Origin: Archivesica marissinica
Taxonomy: Eukaryota; Mollusca; Bivalvia; Venerida; Vesicomyidae
Direction of reading: 5' to 3'
Assembly: GCA_014843695.1 (NCBI GenBank)
Contig: CM026397.1
Location: 43,258,780 to 43,322,779, forward strand
DNA length: 64,000 nucleotides
Below, in pieces: positions 20,307 to 63,083 of this stretch. Positions within the stretch are counted from its first letter, which is position 1. Every line of letters begins with the position of its first letter. The translations under genes and the position numbers were made by a program. The notes below the pieces were generated by a model, which made no database searches, was not told where the DNA came from, and saw only the letters and a list, made by a program, of their open reading frames with translations.

Positions 20307-20700
20307 CTGGTTCGATATACTGTGACGGCTAAAGCCATGCATCGTGACGACAGTATCATTGTATAAGATCATGATTGTACTGGTTGAAAAACGAAATAAA
20401 TTGTCTGAGATATACTGTCATCTTGACAGAGTAGAGATATAGCGTTATGCCGGAAGTGTCGTACGTGCCCATAGCAACGTAGTCTTAGATAATGCAAAGT
20501 GTTTTTGCAATATTTCTTAATTGGATATAATGTTCACCAAGGATAACGTTCAATAATAATCAGACAATGGGATTTCTTTATGTATGGCTATGATTTGATA
20601 AAACATTCTGAATTAATTTAGTGTGTGTCATTTTAGCATAAATTAATAACCAAAAGTTGTCAACCAAAATCTATTGATCGTGAGCTTCAGGAATTAGTTA

Positions 20701-21263: not shown

Positions 21264-22263
21264 NNNNNNNNNNNNNNNNNNNNNNNNNNNNNNNNNNNNN
21301 NNNNNNNNNNNNNNNNNNNNNNNNNNNNNNNNNNNNNNNNNNNNNNNNNNNNNNNNNNNNNNNNNNNNNNNNNNNNNNNNNNNNNNNNNNNNNNNNNNNN
21401 NNNNNNNNNNNNNNNNNNNNNNNNNNNNNNNNNNNNNNNNNNNNNNNNNNNNNNNNNNNNNNNNNNNNNNNNNNNNNNNNNNNNNNNNNNNNNNNNNNNN
21501 NNNNNNNNNNNNNNNNNNNNNNNNNNNNNNNNNNNNNNNNNNNNNNNNNNNNNNNNNNNNNNNNNNNNNNNNNNNNNNNNNNNNNNNNNNNNNNNNNNNN
21601 NNNNNNNNNNNNNNNNNNNNNNNNNNNNNNNNNNNNNNNNNNNNNNNNNNNNNNNNNNNNNNNNNNNNNNNNNNNNNNNNNNNNNNNNNNNNNNNNNNNN
21701 NNNNNNNNNNNNNNNNNNNNNNNNNNNNNNNNNNNNNNNNNNNNNNNNNNNNNNNNNNNNNNNNNNNNNNNNNNNNNNNNNNNNNNNNNNNNNNNNNNNN
21801 NNNNNNNNNNNNNNNNNNNNNNNNNNNNNNNNNNNNNNNNNNNNNNNNNNNNNNNNNNNNNNNNNNNNNNNNNNNNNNNNNNNNNNNNNNNNNNNNNNNN
21901 NNNNNNNNNNNNNNNNNNNNNNNNNNNNNNNNNNNNNNNNNNNNNNNNNNNNNNNNNNNNNNNNNNNNNNNNNNNNNNNNNNNNNNNNNNNNNNNNNNNN
22001 NNNNNNNNNNNNNNNNNNNNNNNNNNNNNNNNNNNNNNNNNNNNNNNNNNNNNNNNNNNNNNNNNNNNNNNNNNNNNNNNNNNNNNNNNNNNNNNNNNNN
22101 NNNNNNNNNNNNNNNNNNNNNNNNNNNNNNNNNNNNNNNNNNNNNNNNNNNNNNNNNNNNNNNNNNNNNNNNNNNNNNNNNNNNNNNNNNNNNNNNNNNN
22201 NNNNNNNNNNNNNNNNNNNNNNNNNNNNNNNNNNNNNNNNNNNNNNNNNNNNNNNNNNNNNNN
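21264..22263. other. Assembly gap of exactly 1000 N
   Basis: The round length indicates a placeholder gap of unknown true size. It separates the membrane-protein exon from the 38-bp array. Its right edge opens in mid-unit of that array, so the missing DNA includes more array. It probably also hides the end of the membrane-protein gene. It may contain 5' exons of the dynein gene. Confidence 0.97.
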
Positions 22264-25200
22264 ACGTCTCATGCATTAACTATCTAGTCAATCTATATGC
22301 TACGTCTCATGCATTAACTATCTAGTCAATCTATATGCTACGTCTCATGCATTAACTATCTACACAATCTATATGCTACGTCTCATGCATTAACTATCTA
22401 GTCAATCTATATGCTACGTCTCATGCATTAACTATCTAGTCAATCTATATGCTACGTCTCATGCATTAACTAGTCAATCTATATGCTACGTCTCATGCAT
22501 TAACTATTCAATCTATATGCTACGTCTCATGCATTAACTAGTCAATCTATATGCTACGTCTCATGCATTCTATATGCTACGTCTCATGCATTAACTATCT
22601 AGTCAATCTATATGCTACGTCTCATGCATTAACTATCTAGTCAATCTATATGCTACGTCTCATGCATTAACTATCTACACAATCTATATGCTACGTCTCA
22701 TGCATTAACTATCTAGTCAATCTATATGCTACGTCTCATGCATTAACTATCTAGTCAATCTATATGCTACGTCTCATGCATTAACTATCTAGTCAATCTA
22801 TATGCTACGTCTCATGCATTAACTATCTAGACAATCTATATGCTACGTCTCATGCATTAACTATCTAGTCAATCTATATGCTACGTCTCATGCATTAACT
22901 ATCTAGTCAATCTATATGCTACGTCTCATGCATTAACTATCTAGTCAATCTATATGCTACGTCTCATGCATTAACTATCTACACAATCTATATGCTACGT
23001 CTCATGCATTAACTATCTAGTCAATCTATATGCTATGTCTCATGCATTAACTATCTAGACAATCTATATGCTACGTCTCATGCATTAACTATCTACACAA
23101 TCTATATGCTACGTCTCATGCATTAACTATCTAGTCAATCTATATGCTACGTCTCATGCATTAACTATCTACACAATCTATATGCTACGTCTCATGCATT
23201 AACTATCTAGTCAATCTATATGCTACGTCTCATGCATTAACTATCTAGTCAATCTATATGCTACGTCTCATGCATTAACTATCTACACAATCTATATGCT
23301 ACGTCTCATGCATTAACTATCTAGTCAATCTATATGCTACGTCTCATGCATTAACTATCTAGTCAATCTATATGCTACGTCTCATGCATTAACTATCTAC
23401 ACAATCTATATGCTACGTCTCATGCATTAACTATCTAGTCAATCTATATGCTATGTCTCCTGCATTAACTATCTAGACAATCTATATGCTACGTCTCATG
23501 CATTAACTATCTACACAATCTATATGCTACGTCTCATGCATTAACTATCTAGTCAATCTATATGCTACGTCTCATGCATTAACTATCTAGTCAATCTATA
23601 TGCTACGTCTCATGCATTAACTATCTACACAATCTATATGCTACGTCTCATGCATTAACTATCTAGTCAATCTATATGCTATGTCTCCTGCATTAACTAT
23701 CTAGACAATCTATATGCTACGTCTCCTGCATTAACTATCTAACAATCTATATGCTACGTCTCATGCATTAACTATCTAGTCAATCTATATGCTACGTCTC
23801 ATGCATTAACTATCTAGTCAATCTATATGCTACGTCTCATGCATTAACTATCTACACAATCTATATGCTACGTCTCATGCATTAACTATCTAGTCAATCT
23901 ATATGCTACGTCTCATGCATTAACTATCTAGTCAATCTATATGCTACGTCTCCTGCATTAACTATCTACACAATATATATACTACGTCTCATGCATTAAC
24001 TATCTAGTCAATCTATATGCTATGTCTCATGCATTAACTATCTAGACAATCTATATGCTATGTCTCATGCATTAACTATCTAGTCAATCTATATGCTACG
24101 TCTCATGCATTAACTATCTAGTCAATCTATATGCTACGTCTCCTGCATTAACTATCTAGTCAATCTATATGCTACGTCTCATGCATTAACTATCTAGTCA
24201 ATCTATATGCTACGTCTCATGCATTAACTATCTAGTCAATCTATATGCTACGTCTCCTGCATTAACTAGTCAATCTATGTGCTACGTCTCATGCATTAAC
24301 TAGTCAATCTATGTGCTACGTCTCATGCATTAACTAGTCAATCTATATGCTATGTCTCATGCATTAACTATCTAGTCAATCTATATGCTACGTCTCCTGC
24401 ATTAACTAGTCAATCTATATGCTACGTCTCATGCATTCTATATGCTACGTCTCATGCATTAACTATCTAGACAATCTATATGCTATGTCTCATGCATTAA
24501 CTATCTAGTCAATCTATATGCTATGTCTCATGCATTAACTATCTAGTCAATCTATATGCTACGTCTCATGCATTAACTATCTAGTCAATCTATATGCTAC
24601 GTCTCATGCATTAACTATCTAGTCAATCTATATGCTACGTCTCATGCATTAACTATCTACACAATCTATATGCTACGTCTCATGCATTAACTATCTAGTC
24701 AATCTATATGCTACGTCTCATGCATTAACTATCTACACAATCTATATGCTACGTCTCATGCATTAACTATCTAGTCAATCTATATGCTACGTCTCATGCA
24801 TTAACTATCTAGTCAATCTATATGCTACGTCTCATGCATTAACTATCTAGTCAATCTATATGCTACGTCTCATGCATTAACTATCTAGTCAATCTATATG
24901 CTACGTCTCATGCATTAACTATCTAGTCAATCTATATGCTACGTCTCATGCATTAACTATCTAGTCAATCTATATGCTACGTCTCATGCATTAACTATCT
25001 AGACAATCTATATGCTACGTCTCATGCATTAACTATCTAGACAATCTATATGCTACGTCTCATGCATTAACTATCTAGTCAATCTATATGCTACGTCTCA
25101 TGCATTAACTATCTAGTCAATCTATATGCTATGTCTCATGCATTAACTATCTAGTCAATCTATATGCTACGTCTCATGCATTAACTATCTAGTCAATCTA

Positions 25201-28200: not shown

Positions 28201-28257
28201 ATATGCTATGTCTCCTGCATTAACTAGTCAATCTATATGCTATGTCTCATGCATTAA
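22264..28257. repeat. 38-bp tandem array, about 160 copies
   Basis: The unit is 38 bp, with core TCTCATGCATTAACTATCTA, then an AGTCAATC, ACACAATC or AGACAATC variant, then TATATGCTACG. Shorter units lacking the ATCT step (TTAACTAGTCAATC) recur in clusters. A variant series with TATGTCTCC followed by AGACAATC repeats at about 23451 and 23679, an offset of 228 bp or six units. The array stops 45 bp before a dynein exon at 28303, so it lies in the intron just upstream of that exon. Confidence 0.98.
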
Positions 28258-28302
28258 GCAGCTATTCCAGATGTTATAAACTGCAATTAATTCTTTGTTC
28301 AG

Positions 28303-28484
28303 AGATACGTCACAAGCGAGAGGACGTTAAGGAAGACCTGAATGAGGATGATCTAGATAAGATTGTAGACTTGATACTCACCGAGACTGAGACAATCTGG
28401 CTCCTCGACATGCCGGGCGTGAGTGTATCCAAGAAGACTCCTGAAGCTGCTGCAGTGAGGAAGAAAAATAAAGCTTACATAGAT
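28303..28484 (+). CDS. DNAI4: DNAI4-like exon A (LTETETIWLLDMPG block)
   Basis: The acceptor is TTGTTCAG at 28295-28302 and the donor is GAT|GTATGT at 28485. The exon starts in phase 1 (two bases complete a split codon) and ends in phase 0. It encodes an acidic/basic stretch (HKREDVKEDLNEDDLDKIVD), the hallmark LTETETIWLLDMPG and a KKKNKAY-like charged end. The 38-bp array stops only 45 bp upstream. Confidence 0.85.
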
Positions 28485-31400
28485 GTATGTACCTGTAGAA
28501 ATCTGTTTGTTGACGTTAGCGTCGACAGTTAACTCAAGTTCAGCCGAGTGCAAGACTCAAATCAAATCACTTGAGCTCGAGTTTGATGTTTTAGAAAAGA
28601 TTTATAACAGTGAGACCAGTATAATGTCAGGTTTATATTCATGACTAACTACCATCTGTTTGTTAGTGATCCGGTTTTGATCTGGTACAGCTGTTTATGA
28701 GAGAAACATATCCTTTGTTGGCCATTGTGGTATGATAAACTGATAAACCAGGTCCACCGAACCTCCATTATTAAACTGATTAGTTTTTTCTAATCTCTTT
28801 AGGGTAAAATTTCAAACCGAAGCCTCTTGTTGGTGCTATCCTTTAGACAAGTAAACAAACAAGAGAAATATCTGGAATGGAACAATATGCTAACCCGTAA
28901 TCAACCTAGTAACTTGAGGATGAAATAAAAAATCTTTAACAGATCTCAGGTCGTTATGATGAATATTCCTATGATCTAAGAGTTAAGAAATGATAGTTTC
29001 ATTGTAGTATGACTATAGTATGACTGTTAAACCTACCGAATATGTGCTGTACTGTATATATTTACTGCATTTTGTACATCACAAACAGCGCAAAAGGGTA
29101 AGGACATCTGTTAGAAATGTCTGTATAATTTCCTTAAATTATACATGCTATTGTTTGGTAAATTGTTGTTCAAGCACAGTGGATTTACACATGGAATACA
29201 ATTAATTAACAATTGAATGTTCTTGTTCTGCGTCTCATCGAGGTATGAAATGTTATTTACACCTAATTTTCATAAAATACGAACGAACATTCAATTGTTA
29301 TAATTACACCTAATATTATACAAAGTAAGTTTGTCTTTTTGATTGGTCACACCATACAAAAAGTAGTTTGTTGTGAATTTTAATGGGAATAGAATAATTC
29401 TTCAATTCATTGGGTTATGAACGGTGATCACATGGGCTGAATCAGCCAATTAGAATCACGATATTGCAAGAAGTTATAATTAATTTGTTGTTATTGAATT
29501 GCTAGAGAAAAGAATGAATGTTGCATACATTTTTCAGCTCCATATCGTAAAAAACCGGCAATCAAATATTCCAAAGAAAAGGCAAGAAATAACCTGCAGA
29601 ATTGTAACGATTGCTGCCGATATCTATAACCCTCTTTTTTGCGATTTACCTTCTTGCTATTTTTGTTTACTACGTATTGCAACCGGAAACCACGTCATGA
29701 GCGGTAAAGTATAATTGATTTACGAATTCCATCCACATATTCCGGATTAGGATTCGACCTGGTTTTTAACCCACGAAAACTGTTGCAATATAGAAATAGA
29801 TATATTTCGACGACATAAATTATAATAATTAAACGGTTAAACCCAGGCAGGGATTGTGGCACATTTAGATCCACTTTGCCTCTTGTCTCTCCTTCATCCA
29901 TTGGAGCCTCTCTGGATTATTGTGCAATAGATCTGGTGTCCACCTCGTAACACAGGCAGGGGTTGTGACACATTTAGATCCACTTTGCCTCTTGTCTCTC
30001 CCTCATCCATTGGAGCCTCTGGATTGTGGTGCAATAGATCTGGTGCCCACCTCGTAACCCAGGCAGGGGTTGTGCCACATTTAGATCCACTTTTCCTCTT
30101 GTCTCTCCTTCATCCATTGGAGCCTCTCTGGATTATTGTGCAATAGATCTGGTGCCCACCTCGTAACCCAGGCAGGGGTTGTGCCACATTTAGATCCACT
30201 TTGCCTCTTGTCTCTCCTTCATCCATTGGAGCCTCTCTGGATTATTGTGCAATAGATCTGGTGCCCACCTCGTAACCCAGGCAGGGGTTGTGGCACATAT
30301 AGATCCACTTTGCCTCTTGTCTCTCCTTCATCCATTGGAGCCCCTCTGGATTATTGTGCAATAGATCTGGTGCCCACCTCGTAACCCAGGCAGGGGTTGT
30401 GGCACATTTAGATCCACTTTGCCTCTTGTCTCTCCTTCATCCATTGGAGCCTCTCTGGATTGTGGTGCAATAGATCTGGTGCCCACCTTGTAACCTAGGC
30501 AGGGGTTGTGCCACATTTAGATCCACTTTGCCTCCTTACTCTCCCTCATGGCAATGGATTCCATTAGCAACGAGGTATCGAGAACAATTATACTCTCATA
30601 CAGTACCCGCTGACCAGATACTCTCATACAGTACCAGCTGACCAGATACTCTCATACAGTACCCGCTGACCAGATACTCTCATACAGTACCAGCTGACCA
30701 GATACTCTCATACAGTATCCACTGACCAGGTACTCTCATACAGTACCCGCTGACCAGATACTCTCATACAGTATCCGCTGACCAGATACTCTCACACAGT
30801 ACCCGCTGACCAGATACTCTCATACAGTACCCGCTGACCAGGTACTCTCATACAGTATCCGCTGACCAGATACTCTCATACAGTACCCGCTGACCAGATA
30901 CTCTCATACAGTATCCACTGACCAGGTACTCTCATACAGTACCCGCTGACCAGATACTCTCATACAGTATCCACTGACCAGGTACTCTCATACAGTACCC
31001 GCTGACCAGATACTCTCATACAGTACTAGCTGACCAGATACTCTCATACAGTACCTGCTGACCAGATACTCTCATACAGTATCCACTGACCAGGTACTCT
31101 CATACAGTACCAGCTGACCAGATACTCTCATACAGTACCAGCTGACCAGATACTCTCATACAGTACCCGCTGACCAGATACTCTCATACAGTACCCACTG
31201 ACCAGATACTCTCATACAGTACCCGCTGACCAGATACTCTCATACAGTACCTGCTGACCAGATACTCTCATACAGTACCCGCTGACCAGATACTCTCATA
31301 CAGTACCTGCTGACCAGATACTCTCATACAGTACCAGCTGACCAGATACTCTCATACAGTACCCGCTGACCAGGTACTCTCATACAGTATCCACTGACCA

Positions 31401-34400
31401 GATACTCTCATACAGTACCCGCTGACCAGATACTCTCATACAGTACCTGCTGACCAGATACTCTCATACAGTACCAGCTGACCAGATACTCTCATACAGT
31501 ATCCACTGACCAGGTACTCTCATACAGTACCCGCTGACCAGATACTCTCATACAGTATCCGCTGACCAGATACTCTCACACAGTACCCGCTGACCAGATA
31601 CTCTCATACAGTACCCGCTGACCAGGTACTCTCATACAGTATCCGCTGACCAGATACTCTCATACAGTACCCGCTGACCAGATACTCTCATACAGTATCC
31701 ACTGACCAGGTACTCTCATACAGTACCCGCTGACCAGATACTCTCATACAGTATCCACTGACCAGGTACTCTCATACAGTACCCGCTGACCAGATACTCT
31801 CATACAGTACTAGCTGACCAGATACTCTCATACAGTACCCGCTGACCAGATACTCTCATACAGTATCCACTGACCAGGTACTCTCATACAGTACCAGCTG
31901 ACCAGATACTCTCATACTGTACCAGCTGACCAGATACTCTCATACAGTACCCACTGACCAGATACTCTCATACAGTACCCGCTGACCAGATACTCTCATA
32001 CAGTACCTGCTGACCAGATACTCTCATACAGTACCCGCTGACCAGATACTCTCATACAGTACCTGCTGACCAGATACTCTCATACAGTACCAGCTGACCA
32101 GATACTCTCATACAGTACCCGCTGACCAGGTACTGTCATACAGTATCCACTGACCAGATACTCTCATACAGTACCCGCTGACCAGATACTCTCATACAGT
32201 ACCTGCTGACCAGATACTCGCATACAGTACCCACTGACCAGATACTCTCATACAGTACCTGCTGACCAGATACTCTCATACAGTATCCGCTGACCAGATA
32301 CTCTCATACAGTACCCACTGACCAGATACTCTCATACAGTACCTGCTGACCAGATACTCTCATACAGTACCCGCTGACCAGATACTCTCATACAGTACCT
32401 GCTGACCAGATACTCTCATACAGTACCTGCTGACCAGATACTCTCATACAGTACCCGCTGACCAGATACTCTCATACAGTACCAGCTGACCAGATACTCT
32501 CATACAGTACCTGCTGACCAGATACTCTCATACAGTACCTGCTGACCAGATACTCTCATACAGTACCCGCTGACCAGATACTCTCATACAGTACCAGCTG
32601 ACCAGATACTCTCACACAGTACCCGCTGACCAGATACTCTCATCCAGTACCCGCTGACCAGATACTCTCACACAGTACCCGCTGACCAGATACTCTCATA
32701 CAGTACCCGCTGACCAGGTACTCTCATACAGTACCCGCTGACCAGATACTCTCATACAGTACCCGCTGACCAGATACTCTCATACAGTACCCGCTGACCA
32801 GATACTCTCATACAGTACCCGCTGACCAGATACTCTCATACAGTACCCGCTGACCAGATACTCTCATACAGTACCCGCTGACCAGATACCCTCATACAGT
32901 ATCCGCTGACCAGGTACTCTCATACAGTACCCGCTGACCAGATACTCTCATACAGTACCTGCTGATCAGATACTCGCATACAGTACCTGCTGACCAGATA
33001 CTCTAATACAGTACCAGCTGACGAGATACTCTCATACAGTACCCGCTGACCAGATACTCTCACACAGTACCAGCTGACCAGATACTCTCGCACAGTACCA
33101 GCTGACCAGATACTCTCGTACAGTATCCACTGACCAGATACTCTCATACAGTACCTGCTGACCAGATACTCTCATACAGTACCTGCTGACCAGATACTCT
33201 CATACAGTACCCGCTGACCAGATACTCTCATACAGTACCTGCTGACCAGATACTCTCATACAGTACCTGCTGACCAGATACTCTCATACAGTACCCGCTG
33301 ACCAGATACTCTCATACAGTACCCGCTGACCAGATACTCTCATACAGTACCCGCTGACCAGATACTCTCATACAGTACCCGCTGACCAGGTACTCTCATA
33401 CAGTACCCGCTGACCAGATACTCTCATACAGTACCTGCTGATCAGATACTCTCATACAGTACCCGCTGACCAGATACTCTCATACAGTACCCGCTGACCA
33501 GATACTCTCATACAGTACCCGCTGACCAGATACTCTCATACAGTACCCGCTGACCAGATACTCTCGTACAGTACCCGCTGACCAGATACTCTCATACAGT
33601 ACCCGCTGACCAGATACTCTCATACAGTACCCGCTGACCAGATACTCTCATACAGTACCAGCTGACCAGATACTCTCATACAGTACCCGCTGACCAGGTA
33701 CTCTCATACAGTACCCGCTGACCAGATACTCTCATACAGTACCCGCTGACCAGGTACTCTCATACAGTACCCGCTGACCAGATACTCTCATACAGTACCC
33801 GCTGACCAGATACTCTCATACAGTACCCGCTGACCAGGTACTCTCATACAGTATCCACTGACACTAGAACTCCACATTGATTATACATGTTTATGAATTG
33901 TTGCCATGTCGATTATCAAAGTCAACTTCTTCAGCTCTAATGTCTTCATATTACAGCTGATATTCCACACAATATGTAATAAGTTGTTATCTAATATTAA
34001 AACAATAAAAGCATTGCAAATGTGTGAATTAATGAGTAAAATGTAACATAAACATTCAGTTAATTATTGCTGATACCGGTATATTATTTTTAGCCACAGT
34101 AACAAGATATCAAGTCATACATATAATATCCATATAATTTATGGACTACGTACCGTAATTTCCATGTTTTTATATGCTCGGTTTGGTACCTCGTATTAGG
34201 CCCAACCACTATTCACAATGGATATAATTAAATATGTAGTAAATATAGTTACTGTCAATATAGCATAGTAATTGCAGAGTTATGCAAGAATAGCATTCAT
34301 CAATTGAAACAGTAGGAGGATATTTGGTTGTTTCAGTGAATTATCGAATTATGTTTCACCGAATGAACATTAAAAGCATTATTATGACGAGTGTCACGAT

Positions 34401-52400: not shown

Positions 52401-55400
52401 GTTGGAAATCAGATATTTACGCTGACTCATGCATTGTATTTTCGCGAAAATCGCGAACATTTCCATATTGTGAATGTAACCACTTGTACAGTAGTTCACA
52501 TTACATCTGATACAAATAGTTTCACCTTGGCTGTTCCATTGGGAAAAGAAGATTAAGTATTTAATGTTCCACATTCAATAGCATATGTCAAATCAATGCA
52601 TCTGGTTTATTCCAAGTTTGAGATGTTTTTATTGTTGTTGTAGGACATAGGAGTGAATGCTACAACCTGGGACATGTATGACACGTTCCAAGAAGTAGAA
52701 AAGGATACAAAGAGTAAGTCTTTAGTCCTTTACTGCACAGAAGTTCCATATAACACCTTCCTTTACTGCACAGAAGTTCCATACAACACCTTCCTTTATT
52801 GCACAGAAGTTCCATACAACACATTCCTTTACTGCACAGACGTTCCATACAACCCTTTCCTTTACTGCACAGATGTTCCATACACCACCTTCCTTTACTG
52901 CACAGAACTTCCATACAACCCTTTCCTTTACTGCACAGAAGTTCCATACAACACCTTCCTTTACTGCACAGAAGTTCCATACAACACCTTCCTTTACTGC
53001 ACAGAAGTTCCATACAACACATTCCTTTACTGCACAGAAGTACAACACCTTCCTTTACTGCACAGAAGTTCCATACAACACCTTCCTTTACTGCACAGAA
53101 GTTCCGTACACCACCTTCCTTTACTGCACAGAAGTTCCATACAACACCTTCCTTTACTGCACAGAAGTTCCATACAACACCTTCCTTTACTGCACAGAAG
53201 TTCCATACAACACATTCCTTTACTGCACAGAAGTACAACACCTTCCTTTACTCCACAGAAGTTCCATACAACACCTTCCTTTACTGCACAGACGTGCCAT
53301 ACACCACCTTCCTTTACTGCACAGTAGTTCCATACAACACCTTCCTTTACTGCACAGAAGTTCCATACAACACTTTCCTTTACTGCACAGACGTTCCATA
53401 CAACACCTTCCTTTACTGCACAGTAGTTCCATACAACACCTTCCTTTACTGCACAGAAGTTCCATACACCACCTTCCTTTACTGCACAGAAGTTCCATAC
53501 AACACCTTCCTTTACTGCACAGTAGTTCCATACAACACCTTCCTTTACTGCACAGACGTGCCATACACCACCTTCCTTTACTGCACAGTAGTTCCATACA
53601 ACACCTTCCTTTACTGCACAGACGTGCCGTACAACACCTTCCTTTACTGCACAGAAGTTCCATACAACAACTTCCTTTACTGCACAGAAGTGCCATACAA
53701 CACCTTCCTTTATTGCACAGAAGTGCCATACAACACCTTGATAGCTTCCCACATATAGCTGCCATTCCATGTCGATATTCCCATAGAAATTGATTATTGT
53801 GTATGTAGTACATACATTATTCCTATTTAAAATTACAGACTGTCCAGTGGTTAACACTCTGGACTGCGAATCCAGGGATAGTAGGTTCAATCCACCATAT
53901 GACCATAATAATATTAACAGTCTTTCAGATGGGACTTTAAACCAAGGTCTCATGTCAGTGTTTTACACTGTGCACATAAAAGAACCAGAGGAGACTCTAG
54001 AATGAGTCCCTGTCTGTATCATTGCACTATCCTCCAAAATCTAAAATGACTAATCTTTAAATGAGGCGTCGCTCAAATGGGCAACCGGTAGCGACGATAA
54101 ATAAACATAAAAACAATACATTTATTATTAGTAGTATTGGGATAAAATGAGTAATTGGCCCCCTCTGTTGTGGAGGTAAAGGGTTACGCTATTTCTACAT
54201 ATTTTATGCACAGACACATGTCACTGTGTACTTCCTTCAATAGACAATGTAACCATGGACTACTTACTTAATACTGTAAAATAGAAACATGCTATGTTTA
54301 ACACACATTGCATAAAAAGAACACGCAGCATTTAAGCAGATTCTCAGCTATTTAATTCAGTTTGTCAGTTATCGGGTTTTTTTCCTGTCCTGTTTATTTT
54401 TTTGAAATGGAATGTGACATTGTGTATATCCATTAGCCACAATGATTGGAATCATTCACATTTGATCCTATATGGTATAATAGTGTTTACTGTTAAATGC
54501 TTATTTGCAATGATAATAACATTAGAATTCTAACTACCATCCATACACACCTATAAGACAAGTTGTTTCCACCAAATTATGGGCTCAAAGTTGCTTCCCA
54601 TCTTTAATATAAGCAGCGAGTGCTAAAAAAATAATTAAATAATAAAATAATTTTTTTTTTTAATTTTTTAAAATAGAATCCATAATTACCTTGTAGATAC
54701 TCGATACTAAAAATGTCTTCAACTTGCACTGGTCAAACATGCAATTTATACGTTGTCTGGTATCCATTTGATCAACCTGTCTTATATGCGAGTGCATGCA
54801 AAAACTCACATATTTCAGGACCAAAAATAGGGGGGGGGGGTCATCTTATAGACGAGATTGCCTTATACGCGAGTATGGATGGTAGTGAATTGGATGTAGC
54901 AGAGTTATGACTATTCTATATTCTAATTTAGGAAGTTTCATTGCACTTTTGTATTAGTTGTCTGGACAGTGTATCTATCCACACTCAATGTGTCATATAT
55001 GCTCTACATACATCATTGTCTGGACAGTGTATCTATCCACACTTGATGTGTCATATATGCGCTACATACATCATTGTCTGGACAGTGTATCTATCCACAC
55101 TCAATATGTCATATATGCTCTACATACACCATTGTCTGGACAGTGTATCTATCCACACTTGATGTGTCATATATGCTCTACAGTCTACATACATCATTGT
55201 CTGGACAGTGTATCTATCCACACTCAATGTGTCATATATGCTCTACATACACCATTGTCTGAACAGTGTATCTATCCACACTTGATGTGTCATATATGCT
55301 CTACAGTCTACATACATCATTGTCTGGACAGTGTATCTATCCACACTCAATGTGTTATATCTGCTCTACATACACCATTGTCTGGACAGTGTATCTATCC

Positions 55401-58400
55401 ACATGTGATGTGTCATATATGCTCTACATACATCATTGTCTGGACAGTGTATCTATCCACACTTGATGTGTCATATATGCTCTACATACATCATTGTCTG
55501 GACAGTGTATCTATCCACACTTGATGTGTCATATATGCTCTACATACATCATTGTCTGGACAGTGTATCTATCCACACTCAATGTGTTATATCTGCTCTA
55601 CATACAACATTGTCTGGACAGTGTATCTATCCACACTTGATGTGTCATATATGCTCTACATACATCATTGTCTGGACAGTGTATCTATCCACACTCAATG
55701 TGTCATATATGCTCTACATACATCATTGTCTGGACAGTGTATCTATCCACACTCAATGTGTCATATATGCTCTACATACATCATTGTCTGGACAGTGTAT
55801 CTATCCACATGTGATGTGTCATATATGCTCTACATACATCATTGCCTGGACAGTGTATCTATCCACACTTGATGTGTCATATATGCTCTACATAGTGTAT
55901 CTATCCACACTTGATGTGTTATATATGCTCTACATACATCATTGTCTGGACAGTGTATCTATCCACACTCAATGTGTCATATATGCTCTACATACATCAT
56001 TGTCTGGACAGTGTATCTATCCACACTCAATGTGTCATATATGCTCTACATACATCATTGTCTGGACAGTGTATCTATCCACATGTGATGTGTCATATAT
56101 GCTCTACATACATCATTGCCTGGACAGTGTATCTATCCACACTTGATGTGTCATATATGCTCTACATAGTGTATCTATCCACACTTGATGTGTTATATAT
56201 GCTCTACATACATCATTGTCTGGACAGTGTATCTATCCACACTCAATGTGTCATATATGCTCTACATACATCATTGTCTGGACAGTGTATCTATCCACAC
56301 TCAATGTGTCATATATGCTCTACATACATCATTGTCTGGACAGTGTATCTATCCACATGTGATGTGTCATATATGCTCTACATACATCATTGCCTGGACA
56401 GTGTATCTATCCACACTTGATGTTTCATATATGCTCTACATAGTGTATCTATCCACACTCAATGTGTCATATATGCTCTACATACATATATATGTTTTGT
56501 AGCTAAAGCAGATGAAGATGAGGGAACCATATCTCAACCAGGGAGCCCCAAAGAAGGTGGAGAGGAAGTGAAAGCCGACATGGGTGATGTTTCTGATACA
56601 GTGGTTAGAGAGAAGAGTGCAACTTCTGTCGGAATAGGTCAAATATTTCCACATCGATGTATAACTGTAACCAAGAAACAAACATTATTTACTCTACTGT
56701 AGGTCTATGATGCCCCCCACCCATAAATTTTTATTTAACAAATTGTCAGATATTACCTTTATTCTAGATTGTTTGGGCCTTGCAAATATTAGGTATTTTT
56801 GCCATCTGTTTCCTGGGTTAGACACTAACTTTTTAAACAGGAATCCCGAAGGGACTTCTGCTATTGAAATCAGGAGGCCCTCCCCAAAATCAGGAATCCC
56901 TCCCAATTTTGTATAATAATAACATAACAGGCTTATGTAAGTTATAATATGAGAAAACTACGATGTCTGTAGTTTTTATCGTTTGTATTTTCCACTTTGC
57001 ACACCCAGTGACAAATGTGCCAGTTGTATCATACTTTTTGCAAACCTCACAAAAATGTTTTGTGTTACTTTCATAGGTTAACCAGGAACATTCTTTTTTT
57101 TCCAACCTCTTTGATTTCATTACAAATCATAAAATTAATGCACTGATGCACAACAATAAATGACCACATTTACGCTTTCATCTGCGCCAATGGATTAATA
57201 TAAGTTGTTAAAACTTGCTTCGCAATCATTGTAAAATAAATAAAGTTTAAACTTAAACAATAAAGTAAGGATCATGTTTATCACCTTTTCTATGGTTTCT
57301 ATGTAAATAATTTTCTAAGCAAATTGTTATATTAAATCAAACAAATAAAACTAACATACTGACATACATGTAAACACAGGCACAAGACACAACATTTTTT
57401 TGCCCTATGGTCATATAGTAAGTAATGTTTACTAAAGGCAACCAACGGAAATGAAACATGCATGCAGAAACATCGACGAGAAACTAGGTAAACACGACCA
57501 GATCACTGATATGCCCTTGTGGTCCCGACCGGAAGACCTTAATCTATCAACAAATACTTTTTATTTCATGGAGATCGGTCAAATAACACCAGAACCCGAG
57601 GTTATAACACTTTTCTCCAATTTCAAAGTCAATCTCAAGCTTCTGGTTGGTTCTGCTGAGTGTAAAACTCAGACTCAACCAATCAAATTACTTGAGTTTG
57701 AGATTTGAGAATAGTTTTATAACCTCAGGCACTGAATGGCACATTGTTTCATCTTGAACAGCAGGAAATGCAATGTTGTCGTTTTCGCTGGGTGTTTGGG
57801 TTTTGACAAGATCCGCTGTGAATGAGTGCTGTGATTGTTTTGTCAATCTGAGTGAATATTACACAGAATTAATGGTCTGCAAATTATGCTCTCGTCATTC
57901 TTCTCTGCCTACTCCAACGTAATTGAACCTTTAGCACGCTGTAGGCGTAATGAGAGACAACAAATGTGTGATCTTTTTCTTACTTTACCTAGAAAGTAGG
58001 GCTTGCTATTTAATTCAAATGGTCCCATCAGGGTATATGTACTTTTATATTACAGTTCTTTAACGATTGCATTTCAGAGAGCAGCACAACTATGATTTCA
58101 TCGGTTTCTGTATCAGAGAGAGTGTTTGCTAGTAGTGAAATGGATGATTCTTCCATACAATTCGAATCATTAGTCATTGATGCGGAAAACAGCTTACAGG
58201 TGTGCTACCTTGATAGTAAAGGAAACGTTTCTTAACTCTTTGCATGCTGGGTAAAATAAATGCCATAAATAGTTCCAAATAATTGTAGCAGATGACAAAT
58301 CATTAATGTGATTTTCTTATTTATAGCTCTGTTTGTAACACAATTCTAATGAAATTTCATGACATATTTGACTGTTATTTTCACCACTCGCATGCAAAGA

Positions 58401-61400
58401 GTCAATATAACAAGAATAGCTTTTCTCAAACTCAAGCTACTGCAGTGAAACCCCTCTAAATAGACCAGAGTTGGGGGGGGGGTCGTCTTATAGGCAAGTA
58501 AATATGGTAGTTAAATTCAGATTTGATCATAATAAGTTGCAGGGGTAAATTACAGATCAACACTCGCATATTAATAAAATCTGTTCGGAAAAGAGGGGTT
58601 CCAGTTTACATTGGTTTGTTTAAAATGAAAAATGAAGGGAAATATTCAAGGTATTCCGGTTTAGTGGTATTCCGGTTTAGAGGTATTCCGGTTTAGTGGT
58701 ATTCTGGTTTAGAGGTATTCCGGTTTAGAGGTATTCCGGTTTTGTGGGGTTTCACTGTATATTATAATCTTAATCCTTAAAATGCTGAATAAATTAGAAG
58801 GAATGTGCAAACAACATAGATCCAGATTATCCACAACGTAACTCCGTGTCTGAACAGGATCTATGTTGTTTGCTATTCAGCCAAGTGTTCCACTATCCAA
58901 ATAGCAACAGCATAGAACCTGATCAGACGGTACGTTCTTTGCCATCTGATCTGGCTCTATGTTGTTTGCAAAAATGAATATACTCGTATAGCGTTACTGT
59001 CTCAGTAGAGGAAGAGCTGGCAGAAACATCTGCTGCGTGTCTCAGTAGAGGAAGAGCTGGGAGAAACATCTGCTGTGTGTCTCAGTAGAGGAAGAGCTGG
59101 CAGAAACATCTGCTGTGTGTCTCAGTAGAGGAAGAGCTGGCAGAAACATCTGCTGTGTGTCTCAGTAGAGGAAGAGCTTGGAGAAACATCTGTTGCGTGT
59201 CTCAGTAGAGGAAGAGCTGGCAGAAACATCTGCGTGTCTCAGTAGAGGAAGAGCTTGGAGAAACATCTGCTGCGTGTCTCAGTAGAGGAAGAGCTGGCAG
59301 AAACATCTGCTGTGTGTCTCAGTAGAGGAAGAGCTGGCAGAAACATCTGCTGTGTGTCTCAGTAGAGGAAGAGCTGGCAGAAACATCTGCTGCGTGTCTC
59401 AGTATAGGAAGAGCTTGGAGAAACATCTGCTGCGTGTCTCAGTAGAGGAAGAGCTGGGAGAAACATCTGCTGTGTGTCTCAGTAGAGGAAGAGCTGGCAG
59501 AAACATCTGCTGCGTGTCTCAGTAGAGGAAGAGCTGGCAGAAACATCTGCTGTGTGTCTCAGTAGAGGAAGAGCTTGGAGAAACATCTGCTGCATGTCTC
59601 AGTAGAGGAAGAGCTGGCAGAAACATCTGCGTGTCTCAGTAGAGGAAGAGCTGGCAGAAACATATGCTGCATGTCTCAGTAGAGGAAGAGCTGGCAGAAA
59701 CATCTGCTGCATGTCTCAGTAGAGGAAGAGCTTGGAGAAACATCTGCTGCGTGTCTCAGTAGAGGAAGAGCTGGCAGAAACATCTGCTGCGTGTCTCAGT
59801 AGAGGAAGAGCTGGCAGAAACATCTGCTGCGTGTCTCAGTAGAGGAAGAGCTTGGAGAAACATCTGCTGCGTGTCTCAGTAGAGGAAGAGCTGGCAGAAA
59901 CATCTGCTGCGTGTCTCAGTAGAGGAAGAGCTGGCAGAAACATCTGCTGCATGTCTCAGTAGAGGAAGAGCTTGGAGAAACATCTGCTGTGTTTCTCAGT
60001 AGAGGAAGAGCTTGGAGAAACATCTGCTGTGTGTCTCAGTAGAGGAAGAGCTTGGAGAAACATCTGCTGCGTGTCTCAGTAGAGGAAGAGCTATGAGAAA
60101 CATCTGCTGCGTGTCTCAGTAGAGGAAGAGCTGGGAGAAACATCTGCTGCGTGTCTCAGTAGAGGAAGAGCTGGGAGAAACATCTGCTGTGTGTCTCAGT
60201 AGAGGAAGAGCTGGGAGAAACATCTGCTGCATGTCTCAGTAGAGGAAGAGCTTGGAGAAACATCTGCTGCATGTCTCAGTAGAGGAAGAGCTTGGAGAAA
60301 CATCTGCTGTGTGTCTCAGTAGAGGAAGAGCTTGGAGATACATCTGCTGCGTGTCTCAGTAGAGGAAGAGCTGTGAGAAACATCTGCTGCGTGTCTCAGT
60401 AGAGGAAGAGCTGGCAGAAACATCTGCTGCATGTCTCAGTAGAGGAAGAGCTGGGAGAAACATCTGCTGTGTGTCTCAGTAGAGGAAGAGCTTGGAGAAA
60501 CATCTGCTGCATGTCTCAGTAGAGGAAGAGCTGGGAGAAACATCTGCTGTGTGTCTCAGTAGAGGAAGAGCTGTGAGAAACATCTGCTGCATGTCTCAGT
60601 AGAGGAAGAGCTGTGAGAAACGGCTGCTGCCAATACTCCGCAAAATACTCAATTCTGTATAAGCCAGGCTTAAAACTCTGCATGGGAATTTATTTATCTC
60701 CACAAATAGTGCAATGGAATATAGGTCTTATTTACTGTCCAGCTGACTTGCAGTGGGTTTGTGGTTCTACCTGTGTCTGAAATAATGTCTGGAGGGACAC
60801 TGGGGGTCTTGGAAACTTGCTGTTGCAGACTGCGAAAACTTTTAGAAATCACATGTCATTCGGACTGACAGATTCAACAATGTTGTCAATCCGAACAAAA
60901 ATCTGTCAGTCCGAAAGGCGATTATATAGAATGATCAAATCGACTCAAAAATGATGTAATTGTATCTTTATTATAATTTTCTATATAATTAACAACTACA
61001 CAGCTAAGCACTTGGTCTACTACTAGGCCTATATTGTATATATAATTAACAACTACACAGCTAAGCACTTGGTCTACTACTAGGCCTATATTGTATATAT
61101 AATTAACAACTACACAGCTAAGCACTTGGTCTACTACTAGGCCTATATTGTCCCTTAAAGTGCTGAATAGTGCAAAGAACAAAGAGCTAGATCAGCAGGC
61201 ATGTAGCATACTGTCTGATCAGGCTCTATATTGTTTGCTATTTGGCCCAGTGTTTTGGGGGTTACATTCGTTTCGATCCTGGTTTTGAACCATCAAAATT
61301 CTTCAGCTAACTAAACTACACAGCTGGTCTAGGATTGAAACGAAAGGCAAGTGTGAGGAAGTACAGTGCTGTATACGACTAAACATAACTGCACAGCTGG

Positions 61401-63083
61401 TCTAAGATTGAAACGAAAGGCAAGTGTGAGGAAGTACAGTGCTGTATACGACTGAACTTAACTGCACAGCTGGTCTAAGATTGAAACGAAAGGCAAGTGT
61501 GAGGAAGTACAGTGCCGTATACGACTGAACATAACTGCACAGCTGGTCTAGGATTGAGACGAAAGGCTGGTCTAGGAAGGCTAATGTGAGGAAGTACAGT
61601 GCTGTATATGCTCATAATAGTATGATAAAACTACCAAATTACACAAAAAATACAGAAAATCTACTTCAAATAATGACGGAATGAAAGGTAATCACCGTTT
61701 TGCTTTTCTTCTGGCAATACATGTATGTCCAAATGACCCTTGAGGTTAAAATCTCTAGAGTCAAGCTGGGTTGTTCAAGAGTCAATCAATATTCATGTTG
61801 GTACTTTCCATACAGGTAACCGACCATATAATAACATCTGGACCAAGGTGTGTTTGGGTGCAACCAGATCAGCCTGCCACTGAATGTGCAGTGCTGTAGG
61901 TTTTTTTTTATCAGAATTAGAGAAATTGATTAGTTTGCTGAGCTTTGCATCTGGGTTTAGGACCTTACAAGTAAGTTTTGTGTTACTTTGCAACTTGTAT
62001 AGTCCTACATTGTATCCCATGAATAACTAATAGAAATGACGATTATGCAAAAAAATAGATCTTTTTCATGATATAAATAACAATTACATATGTAAACATA
62101 TAATATAAATTACAGTTATTTTACAATAATCTATCGATACTACATACTAATATAGTATATATACAAATGCATTTATTAATTTTTATAAAGAGAGAAGAAA
62201 TTAGGTTTGAAAGTAAGATAGCTGGAGAAGAGATGAAAAATTCCGATCCAGAATACAAACATCTTAAAAAAAGATCTGCATTTAATTTGATGAAGCAGGA
62301 AATCAGTACGAAATGGAGCGAGTACGATTCCAAAGCCCTGCATGCATTTCTCAATCTCATATATAGCCAAATATTCATTTCAATATCTATGGAACTTTGA
62401 ATTGTTATCCATAAATAATATGTATAATTAACATCATTTGCGAAATCAACTAAAATTCTGAGTAAAAGGGGATTCTGATCAGCTGTTTGTAGGAATCTGA
62501 ACAGTTCAATAATACTGCAAGATAGCAATGTAACCAGTCGTAATTACTATGAAACAAAGTGATTTTCATAAAATATATTTAGTTATCAATGGAAAAAAAA
62601 AAATTGTTTTCTTGAAGTTTACAGGTTACAAAGCAGCTTTTGAAATGACCTTTAACCTGCGCGATACTAGTTGTTTTCTGCTCCGTGATTGGTTCAAATT
62701 GCTACGACAATAAAAATTGCGCTTTCATTTAATTATTTTGTGATGGTATAAAACGTTACCGAATATAAAAATACACGTCAGATATGGACACTTTTCATCG
62801 ACGAAAGACGAAATCGATCATTAAAAACGTGAGTCATGCGAACCAGCGTAACACAATGTTTGGTCGTCAGGACTGCAATTTCGCAGTCTGTGTTGGTGCT
62901 ACTCAAAGTCCAAAACAATAATACGCCAATCAGATTTCTTATTACTTATGTAGCATTCATTGTAGAAATAACATTTTCAGAGCGAGAAATTCAGTACAAG
63001 TCGGATGGTGATTGAGAGACTGATTAATGTGAATAATTACCATGCCAAGCAGGCATTGTATCGAGGTTATGACATCGTTACAG
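28303..63083 (+). CDS. DNAI4: Axonemal dynein intermediate chain 4 (WDR78)-like gene, six internal exons
   Basis: Six exons on the + strand, at 28303-28484, 34714-34821, 52644-52713, 56503 to about 56698, 58078-58199 and 62981-63083, can be chained in consistent phase with GT/AG borders. In order they carry LTETETIWLLDMPGVSVS, GNDHYAERGTKTFN with a QTD, DIGVNATTWDMYD, a Ser/Glu-rich linker, FESLVIDAENSLQ and VNNYHAKQALYRGY. From memory of the family, this is the order in the N-terminal half of DNAI4/WDR78. The ERG-TFN-QTD and ATxWDMYD blocks are also shared with DNAI1. DNAI4 proteins take part in axonemal dynein assembly and function in motile cilia. The WD40 propeller is not in the window and should follow 64000. 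The first exon seen starts in phase 1, so at least one upstream exon is missing. The introns are filled with minisatellites. DNAI1 or DNAI3 is a less likely alternative. Confidence 0.75.
28530..28607 (+). repeat. Dispersed repeat, half-copy of palindromic MITE
   Basis: The segment runs from AACTCAAGTTCAGCCGAGTG through CACTTGAGCTCGAGTTTGA to GATTTATAAC. It aligns with the right half of the palindromic element at 57596-57728 (CTGCTGAGTG, TTACTTGAGTTTGAG, TTTTATAAC). The left half is absent here. Confidence 0.6.
29207..29300. mobile_element. 94-bp element with perfect 16-bp inverted ends
   Basis: TAACAATTGAATGTTC at 29207-29222 is the exact reverse complement of 29285-29300. The interior is AT-rich. 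It resembles a very small MITE or a hairpin. No clear target-site duplication is visible. Confidence 0.5.
29841..30550. repeat. 109-bp tandem array, about 6.5 copies
   Basis: Units begin ACCCAGGCAGGGGTTGTGGC and run through ATTTAGATCCACTTTGCC, CTCTCCTTCATCCATTGG and AATAGATCTGGTGCCCACC. Successive starts at 29841, 29950, 30057 and 30166 give steps of 109, 107 and 109 bp. The last unit breaks off near 30550 and is followed after 40 bp by the 28-bp array. Confidence 0.95.
30591..33862. repeat. 28-bp tandem array, about 117 copies
   Basis: The unit core is ACTCTCATACAGTACC followed by a CGCTGACCAGAT variant. A whole block of variants is duplicated at an offset of 784 bp, exactly 28 units: CACTGACCAGG at 30721 recurs at 31505, and TACTAGCTG at 31024 recurs at 31808. 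Units in the right part (after about 32700) are more uniform. The array is intronic. Confidence 0.98.
33863..34713. other. Intron, non-array part before exon B
   Basis: This is AT-rich unique DNA leading to the acceptor TATAATCAG of exon B. I see no gene, SINE or strong repeat in it. Confidence 0.6.
34714..34821 (+). CDS. DNAI4: DNAI4-like exon B (GNDHYAERGTKTFN block)
   Basis: The exon is 36 codons, phase 0 at both ends. The acceptor is AATCAG at 34708-34713 and the donor is AAT|GTAAGT at 34822. A second AG at 34719-34720 would put a stop at once, so the earlier one was chosen. It also keeps the family spacing Y-x9-GND between exons A and B. It encodes GNDHYAERGTKTFNEIQK and LIQTDTVAFN, the conserved ERG..TFN...QTD block. 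Confidence 0.85.
34877..35020 (+). mobile_element. tRNA-derived SINE, 3'-truncated
   Basis: The head GAGAGGTGGCCGAATTGTC resembles a tRNA-Leu/Ser box A, and GGTTTGAATCCC is a box B. The body CTATCCAGCTAGCTTGCAG then TTGATTCTACCCAGG resembles a SINE body common in molluscs, from memory. The usual downstream part after CCCAGG is missing. Confidence 0.7.
35069..39548. repeat. 37-bp tandem array, about 122 copies
   Basis: The unit core is ATCATGTATTTGTGAGGAAA then TCGGAGATATTTACAAC. A 34-bp variant lacking one 3-bp step (TACATCATG instead of TACAACATCATG) recurs at about 35206, 35872, 35982 and elsewhere. Variants GTTAT and GGTAT in place of GATAT are scattered, and 38000-39470 is nearly homogeneous. 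The array lies in the 17.8-kb intron between exons B and C. Confidence 0.98.
39549..39843. other. Short unique spacer between two arrays
   Basis: About 295 bp of non-repetitive intronic DNA separates the 37-bp and 22-bp arrays. I see no gene in it. Confidence 0.6.
39844..40917. repeat. 22-bp AT-rich tandem array, about 48 copies
   Basis: The unit is CATGTATTTGACTTATATTATA with CATATATTTGACC-type and GCATG variants. It is intronic and very AT-rich. Confidence 0.97.
40918..41270. other. Unique spacer between two arrays
   Basis: About 350 bp of intronic DNA. Short opposing open frames of about 70 codons occur but show no domain. 41229-41270 looks like a degenerate edge of the 53-bp array (ACAGTCGTGAAAAATC). 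Confidence 0.5.
41271..51351. repeat. 53-bp tandem array, about 190 copies
   Basis: The unit core is TTTCTCCGTAGTACAGGTAT then AAACAGTCGTGCGATATCTC and TCCTGCCACAGCG. Length variants come from CTCTC/CTC loss, missing CGTG, missing ACA and an ACACAC expansion. The minus strand has no stops in any frame of the unit and the period is not divisible by three, so the same three peptides rotate through all minus frames, giving artificial frames up to 859 codons. A stretch around 45751-45954 recurs at 48478-48681 (offset 2727 bp) with the same variants. A rare ACATGTATAAACAGTCCTGC unit occurs at about 43283 and 49251. The array is intronic. Confidence 0.98.
51352..52643. other. Intron, non-array part before exon C
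   Basis: Unique AT-rich DNA containing a SINE at about 51980-52238, listed separately. It ends in the pyrimidine-rich TTTTTATTGTTGTTGTAG acceptor of exon C. No other gene is visible. Confidence 0.6.
51980..52238 (+). mobile_element. tRNA-derived SINE, copy 1
   Basis: It has box B GGTTCGATCCC, then CAGATGGGACTTTAAACCAA, CCAGAGGAGACTCTAGAATG, TGGGCAACCGATAGCGACG and an AATAAACGTAAAA tail. The 5' tRNA-like head is degraded. It is in the same orientation as, and homologous over its length to, the copy at 53839-54116. Confidence 0.8.
52644..52713 (+). CDS. DNAI4: DNAI4-like exon C (DIGVNATTWDMYD block)
   Basis: The acceptor is TTGTTGTAG at 52635-52643 and the donor is AAGA|GTAAGT at 52714. It starts in phase 0 and ends in phase 1. 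It encodes DIGVNATTWDMYDTFQEVEK, the conserved ATxWDMYD block of axonemal intermediate chains. The 33-bp array begins only 13 bp after the donor. Confidence 0.85.
52727..53740. repeat. 33-bp tandem array, about 31 copies
   Basis: The unit core is TTTACTGCACAGAAGTTCCA then TACAACACCTTCC. Some units are short (GAAGTACAACACC at about 53037 and 53230). Because the period is 11 codons, all three + frames stay open for long stretches. It lies right after exon C's donor, so it is intronic. Confidence 0.97.
53839..54116 (+). mobile_element. tRNA-derived SINE, copy 2 (full length)
   Basis: The 5' head has box A-like GTCCAGTGGTTAACACTCTG, an anticodon-arm-like CTGGACTGCGAATCCAG and box B GGTTCAATCC. 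The body has CAGATGGGACTTTAAACCAA and CCAGAGGAGACTCTAGAATG, and the tail is GATAAATAAACATAAAA. This shows descent from a tRNA gene by the SINE route. It is not a functional tRNA because the 3' acceptor strand is replaced by SINE body. Confidence 0.85.
54533..54886. mobile_element. MITE-like element with 14-bp perfect inverted ends
   Basis: ACTACCATCCATAC at 54533-54546 is the reverse complement of 54873-54886. Similarity extends inward (CCTATAAGAC against CGTATAAGGC). The interior holds an AT run and a GGGGGGGGGG tract followed by TCATCTTATAG. A piece of a related end lies at 58474-58511. Confidence 0.65.
54958..56487. repeat. 58-bp tandem array, about 27 copies
   Basis: The unit core is TTGTCTGGACAGTGTATCTA then TCCACACTCAATGTGTCATA and TATGCTCTACATACATCA. 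Sites alternate CTCAATG, CTTGATG and ATGTGATG. A 274-bp block carrying a shortened unit (CTACATAGTGTATC) repeats at about 55891, 56165 and 56439. The array ends 15 bp before exon D. Confidence 0.97.
56503..56698 (+). CDS. DNAI4: DNAI4-like exon D (Ser/Glu-rich linker), 3' border uncertain
   Basis: The acceptor is TATGTTTTGTAG ending at 56502. The first two bases complete the codon split after exon C, giving KADEDEGTISQPGSPKEGG and DVSDTVVREKSATS. This acidic, Ser-rich, low-conservation linker fits the region between the WDMYD block and the next helix. Two donors keep exon E open with plausible borders: 56699 (GTAGGT, phase 2, paired with 58078) and 56628 (GTCGGA, phase 0, paired with an acceptor at 58079). 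56667 (GTAACC, phase 0) is a third option. The AG|GT at 56638 would put a stop in exon E. Confidence 0.6.
57161..57251 (+). mobile_element. SINE 3' end, 5'-truncated
   Basis: CCACATTTACGCTTTCATCT through AACTTGCTTCGCAATCATTG to AAATAAATAAAGTTTAAAC matches the 3' end of the SINE at 63239-63465. The tRNA-like head is missing, as expected from incomplete reverse transcription. Confidence 0.75.
57596..57728. mobile_element. Palindromic MITE, about 133 bp
   Basis: The ends GAGGTTATAA (57598-57607) and TTATAACCTC (57717-57726) are exact inverted repeats. The inner arms AATCTCAAGCTTCTGG and its imperfect complement around ACTTGAGTTTGAGATT make almost the whole element a hairpin. Half of a related copy lies at 28530-28607. 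Confidence 0.65.
58078..58199 (+). CDS. DNAI4: DNAI4-like exon E (FESLVIDAENSLQ)
   Basis: The acceptor is GCATTTCAG ending at 58077 (or 58079) and the donor is CAG|GTGTGC at 58200. It ends in phase 0. It encodes SSTTMISSVSVSERVFASS and then FESLVIDAENSLQ, a Ser-rich linker followed by a likely helix, in the position expected before the ERL...RGY block of exon F. The other two frames carry stops. Confidence 0.7.
58235..58402. mobile_element. MITE-like element, 13-bp inverted ends
   Basis: ACTCTTTGCATGC at 58235-58247 is the exact reverse complement of 58390-58402. The 168-bp interior is AT-rich and non-coding. It starts 36 bp after exon E. Confidence 0.65.
58443..58757. mobile_element. MITE-like element with CAGTGAAACCCC ends and internal repeats
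   Basis: CAGTGAAACCCC at 58443-58454 is the exact reverse complement of 58746-58757. The right part holds about six copies of a 17-18 bp repeat (GGTATTCCGGTTTAGAG) between 58650 and 58745. The left part holds a fragment (58474-58511, GTCGTCTTATAG to ATATGGTAGT) related to the end of the element at 54533-54886, suggesting nesting. Confidence 0.6.
58775..58975. mobile_element. Inverted-repeat element, GCAAACAACATAGATC family, copy 1
   Basis: GCAAACAACATAGATCCAG begins at 58807 and its complement ends at 58969, with 20 of 21 bp matching. The flank CCTTAAAATGCTGAATA is shared with the copy at 61152, and an internal CTATGTTGTTTGCTATT also recurs there. Confidence 0.6.
58999..60630. repeat. 40-bp tandem array, about 41 copies
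   Basis: The unit core is TGTCTCAGTAGAGGAAGAGC then TGGCAGAAACATCTGCTGCG, with GGCAG, TGGAG, GGGAG and GTGAG variants and TGC/TGT steps. Two units are 36 bp, lacking CTGC (about 59230 and 59629). The array is intronic, between exons E and F. Each unit carries a TGTCTCAG acceptor-like string. Confidence 0.97.
60984..61150. repeat. 57-bp tandem repeat, about 3 copies
   Basis: AACAACTACACAGCTAAGCA starts at 60991, 61048 and 61105. Each unit continues through GGTCTACTACTAGGCC and TATATTGTATATATAATT. The period of 19 codons keeps a short minus-strand frame open, which I do not regard as coding. Confidence 0.95.
61152..61250. mobile_element. GCAAACAACATAGATC family, copy 2 (partial)
   Basis: It begins CCCTTAAAGTGCTGAATA and contains GCTAGATCAG and CTGATCAGGCTCTATATTG with TTTGCTATTTGGCCCAGTG. 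It aligns with the left half of the element at 58775-58975. Confidence 0.55.
61308..61610. repeat. 73-bp tandem repeat, four copies
   Basis: CACAGCTGGTCTA occurs at 61319, 61392, 61465 and 61538, spaced 73 bp. Units run through GATTGAAACGAAAGGCAAG and GAGGAAGTACAGTGCTGTAT. The last copy has a short insertion (GGTCTAGGAAGGC). Confidence 0.95.
62981..63083 (+). CDS. DNAI4: DNAI4-like exon F (VNNYHAKQALYRGY)
   Basis: The acceptor is ACATTTTCAG ending at 62980 and the donor is ACAG|GTACGT at 63084. It starts in phase 0 after exon E and ends in phase 1. It encodes SEKFSTSRMVIERLINVNNY then HAKQALYRGYDIVT, matching the ER-x-L...N-x-Y...Y-R-G region that precedes the WD40 propeller in this family. 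The next exon is outside the window. Confidence 0.8.

Follow-up and report, generated by a model that had tools for sequence, protein, structure and literature searches.

Minisatellite arrays in the introns of a predicted intact DNAI4 gene and in sampled DNA across the genome of the clam Archivesica marissinica

Introduction

Minisatellite-like tandem duplications of exon-intron boundaries, named mirages, have been described in the amphioxus genes Adh3, BflGb6 and BflGb9 (PMC3087553). According to that account, their units are 10–160 bp long, up to six duplicates occur in BflGb6, and splicing was undisturbed in the RT-PCR experiments of its authors (PMC3087553). In the literature that we found, junction-spanning arrays were reported from amphioxus only, which is not proof that bivalve mirages are unpublished. 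A second system is that of the gigantic Y-linked genes of Drosophila, such as kl-3 and kl-5, whose introns are described as filled with tandem repeats (PMC6508621, PMC11207136). Among clams, tandem repeats were reported to make up 23.6% of the 1.47-Gb genome of Panopea generosa, and very high TRF content is, on the evidence of that report, already a known kind of genome in this group (PMC10729735). The genome of Archivesica marissinica was itself published at 1.52 Gb, with 94.3% placed in 19 linkage groups and 42.2% repeats (PMC7826175), and the longer introns of two symbiotic clams have been ascribed to transposons (PMC9993606).

Here we describe a 64-kb stretch of A. marissinica scaffold C12 (C12:43258780-43322779, hereafter the window), to which 200 kb of downstream sequence was added. 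Features outside the window are given in the continuous numbering of the resulting 264 kb (window-plus-downstream numbering). The original prediction had seen in the window an axonemal dynein gene with array-packed introns and had likened it to kl-3 and kl-5. We consider it very likely that the locus holds a DNAI4 gene, ordinary and intact, and that minisatellites with private units make up about half of this bivalve genome, in which duplication goes on nearly everywhere and introns swell around fixed exons.

The DNAI4 gene

DNAI4 (WDR78, or IC138 in Chlamydomonas) is an intermediate chain of the axonemal inner arm I1/f dynein. The six exons (about 0.7 kb) that had been proposed in the window were placed with base precision; each is bordered by AG and GT, and together they measure 720 bp. 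All are on the plus strand: exon A (28303..28484, with a phase 1 acceptor and a phase 0 donor, 83% to Mactra DNAI4 by tblastn), exon B (34714..34821), exon C (52644..52713, with the next array beginning 12 bp past its donor), exon D (56503..56637, with a weak donor, GTCAAA), exon F (58078..58199) and exon G (62981..63083), the last one within the window. Exon F is the least conserved (46% to Mactra, E value 0.19) and was placed by phase and splice sites. The six exons stood as placed, but the gene proved larger than predicted, with at least 10 more exons over 50 kb downstream. They run from C12:43330564 and include exons H (71785-71930), I (73696-73782), J (76195-76272), K (81532-81605), L (83777-83934, with the donor set by phase), L2 (93553-93673), M (96583-96670), N (98668-98796), O (104481-104578) and P (112871-112946), all in window-plus-downstream numbering.

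The prediction of a ciliary dynein intermediate chain gene was correct, and the gene can be named. In the proposed search against dynein intermediate chains, an earlier 15-exon model (547 residues, frame intact) matched human DNAI4 (chain 8j07_k2) with an E value of 4.9e-124, ahead of DNAI1 (1.7e-60) and DNAI2 (2.2e-22). Exon A alone matched the same human chain (E value 1.6e-6), and the best named relatives of the 15-exon model, among the matches listed, were DNAI4/WDR78 proteins of bivalves. The 16-exon model (1,775 bp, 591 residues) has no stops, all its phases fit, and GT-AG borders are present in 15 of 15 introns. Its open frame aligns to human and bivalve proteins, with identities of 71% to Mactra, Ruditapes and Mercenaria, 69% to Mya and 68% to Dreissena. 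These relatives mark the source as an imparidentian bivalve, whose own protein does not occur among the at least 120 matches listed. The alignment with Mactra DNAI4 extends over 591 residues and covers Mactra residues about 176 to 768, and exons H-P align with residues about 460-805 of human DNAI4, the C-terminal half with the WD40 propeller. The N-terminal ~175 residues seen in relatives and the C-terminal ~70 residues were not found in the window and the 200 kb downstream of it, in which one N gap (121000-121999, window-plus-downstream) lies beyond exon P. Judged by its frame, phases and splice sites, all of which are whole, this is predicted to be an ordinary, intact gene, and it would be expected to be spliced correctly. 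Compared with DNAI4 of its relatives, the size and content of the introns are those of this genome.

Upstream of exon A, positions 20698-21263 of the window contain an open frame, cut by a run of 1000 N (21264..22263), whose small predicted product is N-glycosylation-rich and has one likely membrane helix. No Pfam match was obtained for this frame, which would fall inside DNAI4 if the first exons of that gene are upstream.

Minisatellite arrays in the introns

Eleven arrays of unrelated units had been predicted, at least one in each of the four largest introns and one upstream of exon A. We found by TRF the same number between 22264 and 61567, with periods of 22 to 109 bp, described here in their order along the window. 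The first is a 38-bp minisatellite of about 160 copies (22264..28257), which stops 45 bp short of exon A; it starts directly after the 1000-N run, so that its true length may differ from these coordinates. Intron A-B holds a 109-bp array (29840..30549, 6.5 copies) and a 28-bp array (30590..33862, about 117 copies), and intron B-C holds a 37-bp array (35069..39548, about 122 copies), a 22-bp array (39866..40917) and a 53-bp array of about 10 kb with a 157-bp higher order (41270..51352). These are followed in intron C-D by a 33-bp array (52726..53739, 31 copies) and a 58-bp array with higher orders of 116, 174 and 274 bp (54958..56487), which ends 15 bp before exon D, and in intron F-G by arrays of 40 bp (58998..60630, 41 copies), 57 bp (60982..61151, 3 copies) and 73 bp (61314..61567, 3.5 copies). 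Beyond the eleven, TRF also gave a short 16-bp array (58649-58742) and 1.9 copies of a 20-bp unit (56867-56904).

As predicted, the four largest of the five introns between exons A and G are rich in arrays, which make up 45-88% of each. The same range applies to 14 of the 15 introns in the 16-exon model, which are 1.4-17.8 kb long, and only the smallest (56638-58077) is low, at 3%. Altogether, arrays account for 60,149 of the 81,869 intron bases of DNAI4 (73.5%, N excluded) and span 47.9 kb of the 64-kb window. At 653-18094 of the window there is another array, of 17.4 kb and with a 51-bp unit, which the original prediction did not list; it lies at the edge of an N run and may be longer.

The arrays have a median unit of 45.5 bp and a median length of 792 bp, and the longest measures 17.4 kb. 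Units were compared among 120 arrays with a period of at least 10 bp and a length of at least 150 bp, 82 of them in the 264 kb and 38 in 28 other loci. The predicted lack of relation between units was borne out, as the 120 arrays sorted into 107 unit families. Ten groups were merged, nine of them from arrays of a single locus (separated by a TRF split, a gap or an insert) and one from two loci (L005 and L046).

Arrays in introns might be the cores of mobile elements (Helentron- or MITE-like, with internal tandem repeats) that were inserted there, and such elements in oysters and Donax are cited in the reference list of PMC10294476. We regard this origin as highly improbable, because the units differ between arrays, several arrays include exon sequence and so must have arisen in place, and a search for shared element ends revealed no common flank among 172 array flanks. 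These flanks gave 39 matching pairs, of which 16 were 100% identical over 27 bp or more. Fourteen of the identical pairs were the same inter-array DNA reached from both sides and two were a contig overlap; with the other 23 pairs scattered, these flanks point to no common carrier. They look locally born. Arrays may start as head-to-tail duplications of short local stretches, which are afterwards extended and homogenised on site, with slippage or unequal exchange as the likely mutational step. No match was detected when positions 18095-64000 of the window were compared with Rfam, or an intron stretch with a plasmid collection.

One true mobile element was observed in the downstream sequence, where a LINE with endonuclease and reverse transcriptase domains splits a 37-bp array into two blocks (202219-205132 and 210758-213401, window-plus-downstream). 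This array must be older than the LINE insertion.

Array content of the genome

The assembly comprises 1.54 Gb, 94.8% of which is carried by 19 large scaffolds (47-110 Mb). C12 is an ordinary 93-Mb scaffold among these, which neither shows nor excludes sex linkage. As a random control we used 20 stretches, each 3 kb long and placed at a round-number position, that were picked beforehand on C1-C19, with C12 contributing two. In this sample, which represents 60 kb out of 1.54 Gb, arrays occupied a mean of 49.9% of the sequence (median 40.7%, range 0-100%, 95% bootstrap CI 35-65%). An array of at least 150 bp was present in 18 of the 20 stretches; in 17 of them its unit was 10 bp or longer (in one case with only 2.3 copies of 382 bp), and six (L031, L034, L039, L043, L047 and L048) were more than 80% array. 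After mononucleotide shuffling the random loci contained 0.15% array, which rules out chance.

Among the gene-based samples, loci centred on WD40 exons (the best 8 of 149 matches) had a mean of 26% array, lower because of this centring, and 7 of the 8 contained an array of at least 150 bp. A small set of dynein heavy chain stretches (4 of 34 matches) had 18, 56, 13 and 26%. The DNA downstream of DNAI4 had a mean of 74% in 46 of 50 3-kb windows (four were dropped for N), and DNAI4 itself had 72% in 27 of 28. The downstream sequence includes a Kirrel/SYG-2-like immunoglobulin gene (144506-150654 in window-plus-downstream numbering, on the L023 side; C12 about 43403285-43409433; best chain SYG-2, E value 2.1e-10), which has arrays in its introns and 56% array over the span of its four recognised exons. 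It also includes a single-exon LRR gene of 547 residues (217058-218698, window-plus-downstream; LRR_8, E value 3.1e-41). Equal array density runs on through the kirrel-like adhesion gene, the LRR gene and the DNA between.

These values bear on the comparison with Drosophila, in which giant satellite introns would be tolerated by late-expressed cilia or sperm genes, on the model of kl-3 and kl-5 on the Y chromosome. The clam gene does resemble kl-3 and kl-5 in that it encodes an axonemal dynein subunit and has introns filled with tandem repeats, 73.5% of their sequence being array. However, DNAI4 is an intermediate rather than a heavy chain, the 15 introns of its gene model measure 1.4-17.8 kb and none of these approaches a megabase, and its repeats are private minisatellites instead of one satellite family. 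Furthermore, arrays of the same kind fill random DNA (about 50%) and the non-ciliary downstream region (74%), so that large array-filled introns are not peculiar to such genes, and the dynein heavy chain stretches (13-56%) are not richer, which speaks, if weakly, against an axonemal explanation. The parallel thus failed, and it appears very improbable that sperm or cilia genes are specially tolerant of such introns. A dynein gene with satellite introns can fit the Drosophila Y story from genome background alone, and this may serve as a warning.

The original prediction had also offered a local hotspot of tandem duplication. This part survived in a limited form, in that array content is higher in the 264 kb (72% and 74%) than in the random sample (50%; Mann-Whitney p = 0.04 for DNAI4 and 0.009 for the downstream sequence, neighbouring windows not being independent); the phenomenon as such is genome-wide. 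The richness above the random mean belongs to the region, not to the gene. It may have some local cause, and a region of C12 with a duplication rate raised above an already high genome background is a possibility that we hold to be somewhat doubtful, because the excess is modest and rich regions are common (6 of 20 random stretches above 80%).

In the reading that we favor, an ordinary gene in a genome of private minisatellites, minisatellite growth looks like a genome-wide habit, not one of cilia genes. Duplication would occur nearly everywhere and be tolerated where DNA is spliced out or intergenic, so that introns would swell around fixed exons. What was reported as the oddity of one gene would then concern the whole genome: approximately half of a 1.5-Gb clam genome may consist of private minisatellites, in which case intron size would be set by tandem duplication. 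The nearest genome in this respect is that of Panopea generosa, also a heterodont clam with 19 chromosomes and very high TRF content. The value of about 50% in our sample is roughly twice that reported there, and the layout of arrays per gene, as given here, is not part of the account of that genome as far as it is drawn on here (PMC10729735).

Arrays spanning splice junctions

Three splice junctions of DNAI4 lie inside arrays by a strict test (20-mers, up to 3 mismatches, within 8 kb) and five when counted more loosely, and the kirrel-like neighbor also has one donor within an array. Exon L2 sits between two arrays: the unit of the upstream array holds the acceptor together with roughly the first 15 bp of the exon, and that of the downstream array holds the last 14 bp of the exon together with the donor GTGAGT, in 13 copies including the true one. 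The end of exon O with its donor GTAAGT is present in 79 copies, again including the true one, over 5.2 kb, and the donor of the kirrel-like Ig3 exon in nine. By the strict test there were 28 further copies of the L2 acceptor, 12 of the L2 donor, 37 of the O donor and 8 of the Ig3 donor, Ig exon boundaries being approximate in this test (with an error of one or two bases at the Ig2 and Ig4 donors). Looser patterns gave 8 copies for the exon I acceptor, and 7 before and 12 after a gap for the exon J donor. At least two further copies were found at 0.6% of random points and 1.2% of exon-interior points.

With repeat units that cross an exon-intron boundary at L2, O and the kirrel-like Ig3, these arrays match, at the level of sequence, the definition of mirages, which would thus recur in a mollusc. 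As described for amphioxus (PMC3087553), the units span a junction on acceptor as well as donor sides, their copies carry AG or GT, and clam units of 38-70 bp fall inside the 10–160 bp range. The differences are the phylum, the scale (up to 79 donors and about 49-67 acceptors in the clam) and the presence of arrays everywhere in the genome.

We also considered whether junction-spanning arrays are in excess over chance, and rejected this. When each array was collapsed to one unit, such units made up 9.3% of the DNAI4 span, so that 3.0 of the 32 junctions were expected inside a unit and 3 were seen (binomial p = 0.58); this expectation covers the strict count only, with the exon L donor taken as 83924 (83934 in the gene model). 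By the strict test, duplications neither seek nor avoid splice junctions. Being blind to what they copy, some would happen to cover the border of an exon and an intron, and a real splice site would then be present in tens of copies. Reading past the first donor of exon O leads to an immediate stop, so the use of a decoy donor there would truncate the protein, and presumably the true, exon-joined copy stays in use. Arrays of this kind, with as many as 79 copies of one donor, offer natural constructs for testing how splice sites are chosen, and also models of how introns grow and are gained.

Direction of array growth

In the O donor array, mismatch to the exon grows with distance (rho = 0.69, n = 33, with 0 of 32 circular shifts as high), and successive copies outward have 0, 1, 1, 1 and then mostly 2 mismatches in the exon-derived part. 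A weaker tendency of this kind is seen in the L2 acceptor array (rho = 0.38, n = 48, 5 of 47 circular shifts as high). No gradient was detected in the L2 donor array, whose 12 copies are alike and all differ from the exon at the same base, and the Ig3 donor array had no trend with distance. A gradient that fits outward growth from the exon is clear in one of the four arrays and suggestive in one more, the other two being without a gradient. We tentatively suggest, although the odds are against it, that exons act as anchors: a junction-spanning duplication would seed an array, new copies would be added beside the exon, and older ones would be pushed out and decay, leaving dozens of decoy splice sites of equal strength, which the spliceosome would pass over for the one joined to the exon. 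If so, exon-anchored arrays could be a major route of intron growth in a half-minisatellite genome and offer a natural test of which donor the spliceosome picks from a row of some 80 that are almost identical.

Assembly gaps and an additional locus

The 264 kb contain six 1000-N gaps or parts of gaps. One of them, at C12:43335435-43336434, is flanked by two stretches (75095-76655 and 77656-79196, window-plus-downstream) whose sequences, with exon J among them, agree at 96% over 1.56 kb; they probably stem from two haplotype contigs that were joined one after the other. Because of the gaps and this doubled contig end, array lengths and one copy of exon J are not reliable to the base. The six gaps and the duplicated end (75,1xx-76,655 and 77,656-79,19x) are also what would lead one to think that the arrays, or their lengths, were made by misassembly. 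There is little to recommend this explanation, as units are unlike, copies match at 80-100% with graded divergence, an in-phase intact gene threads through the arrays, one array has a LINE inside it, and matching flanks occur at only one of the six gaps.

A separate observation was made at L053 (C18:57969556-57970428 region), where a chromosome scaffold includes a match to COX1 that has four TGA codons, which were taken as mitochondrial code; the COX1-matching stretch reads N in the chromosome scaffold here.
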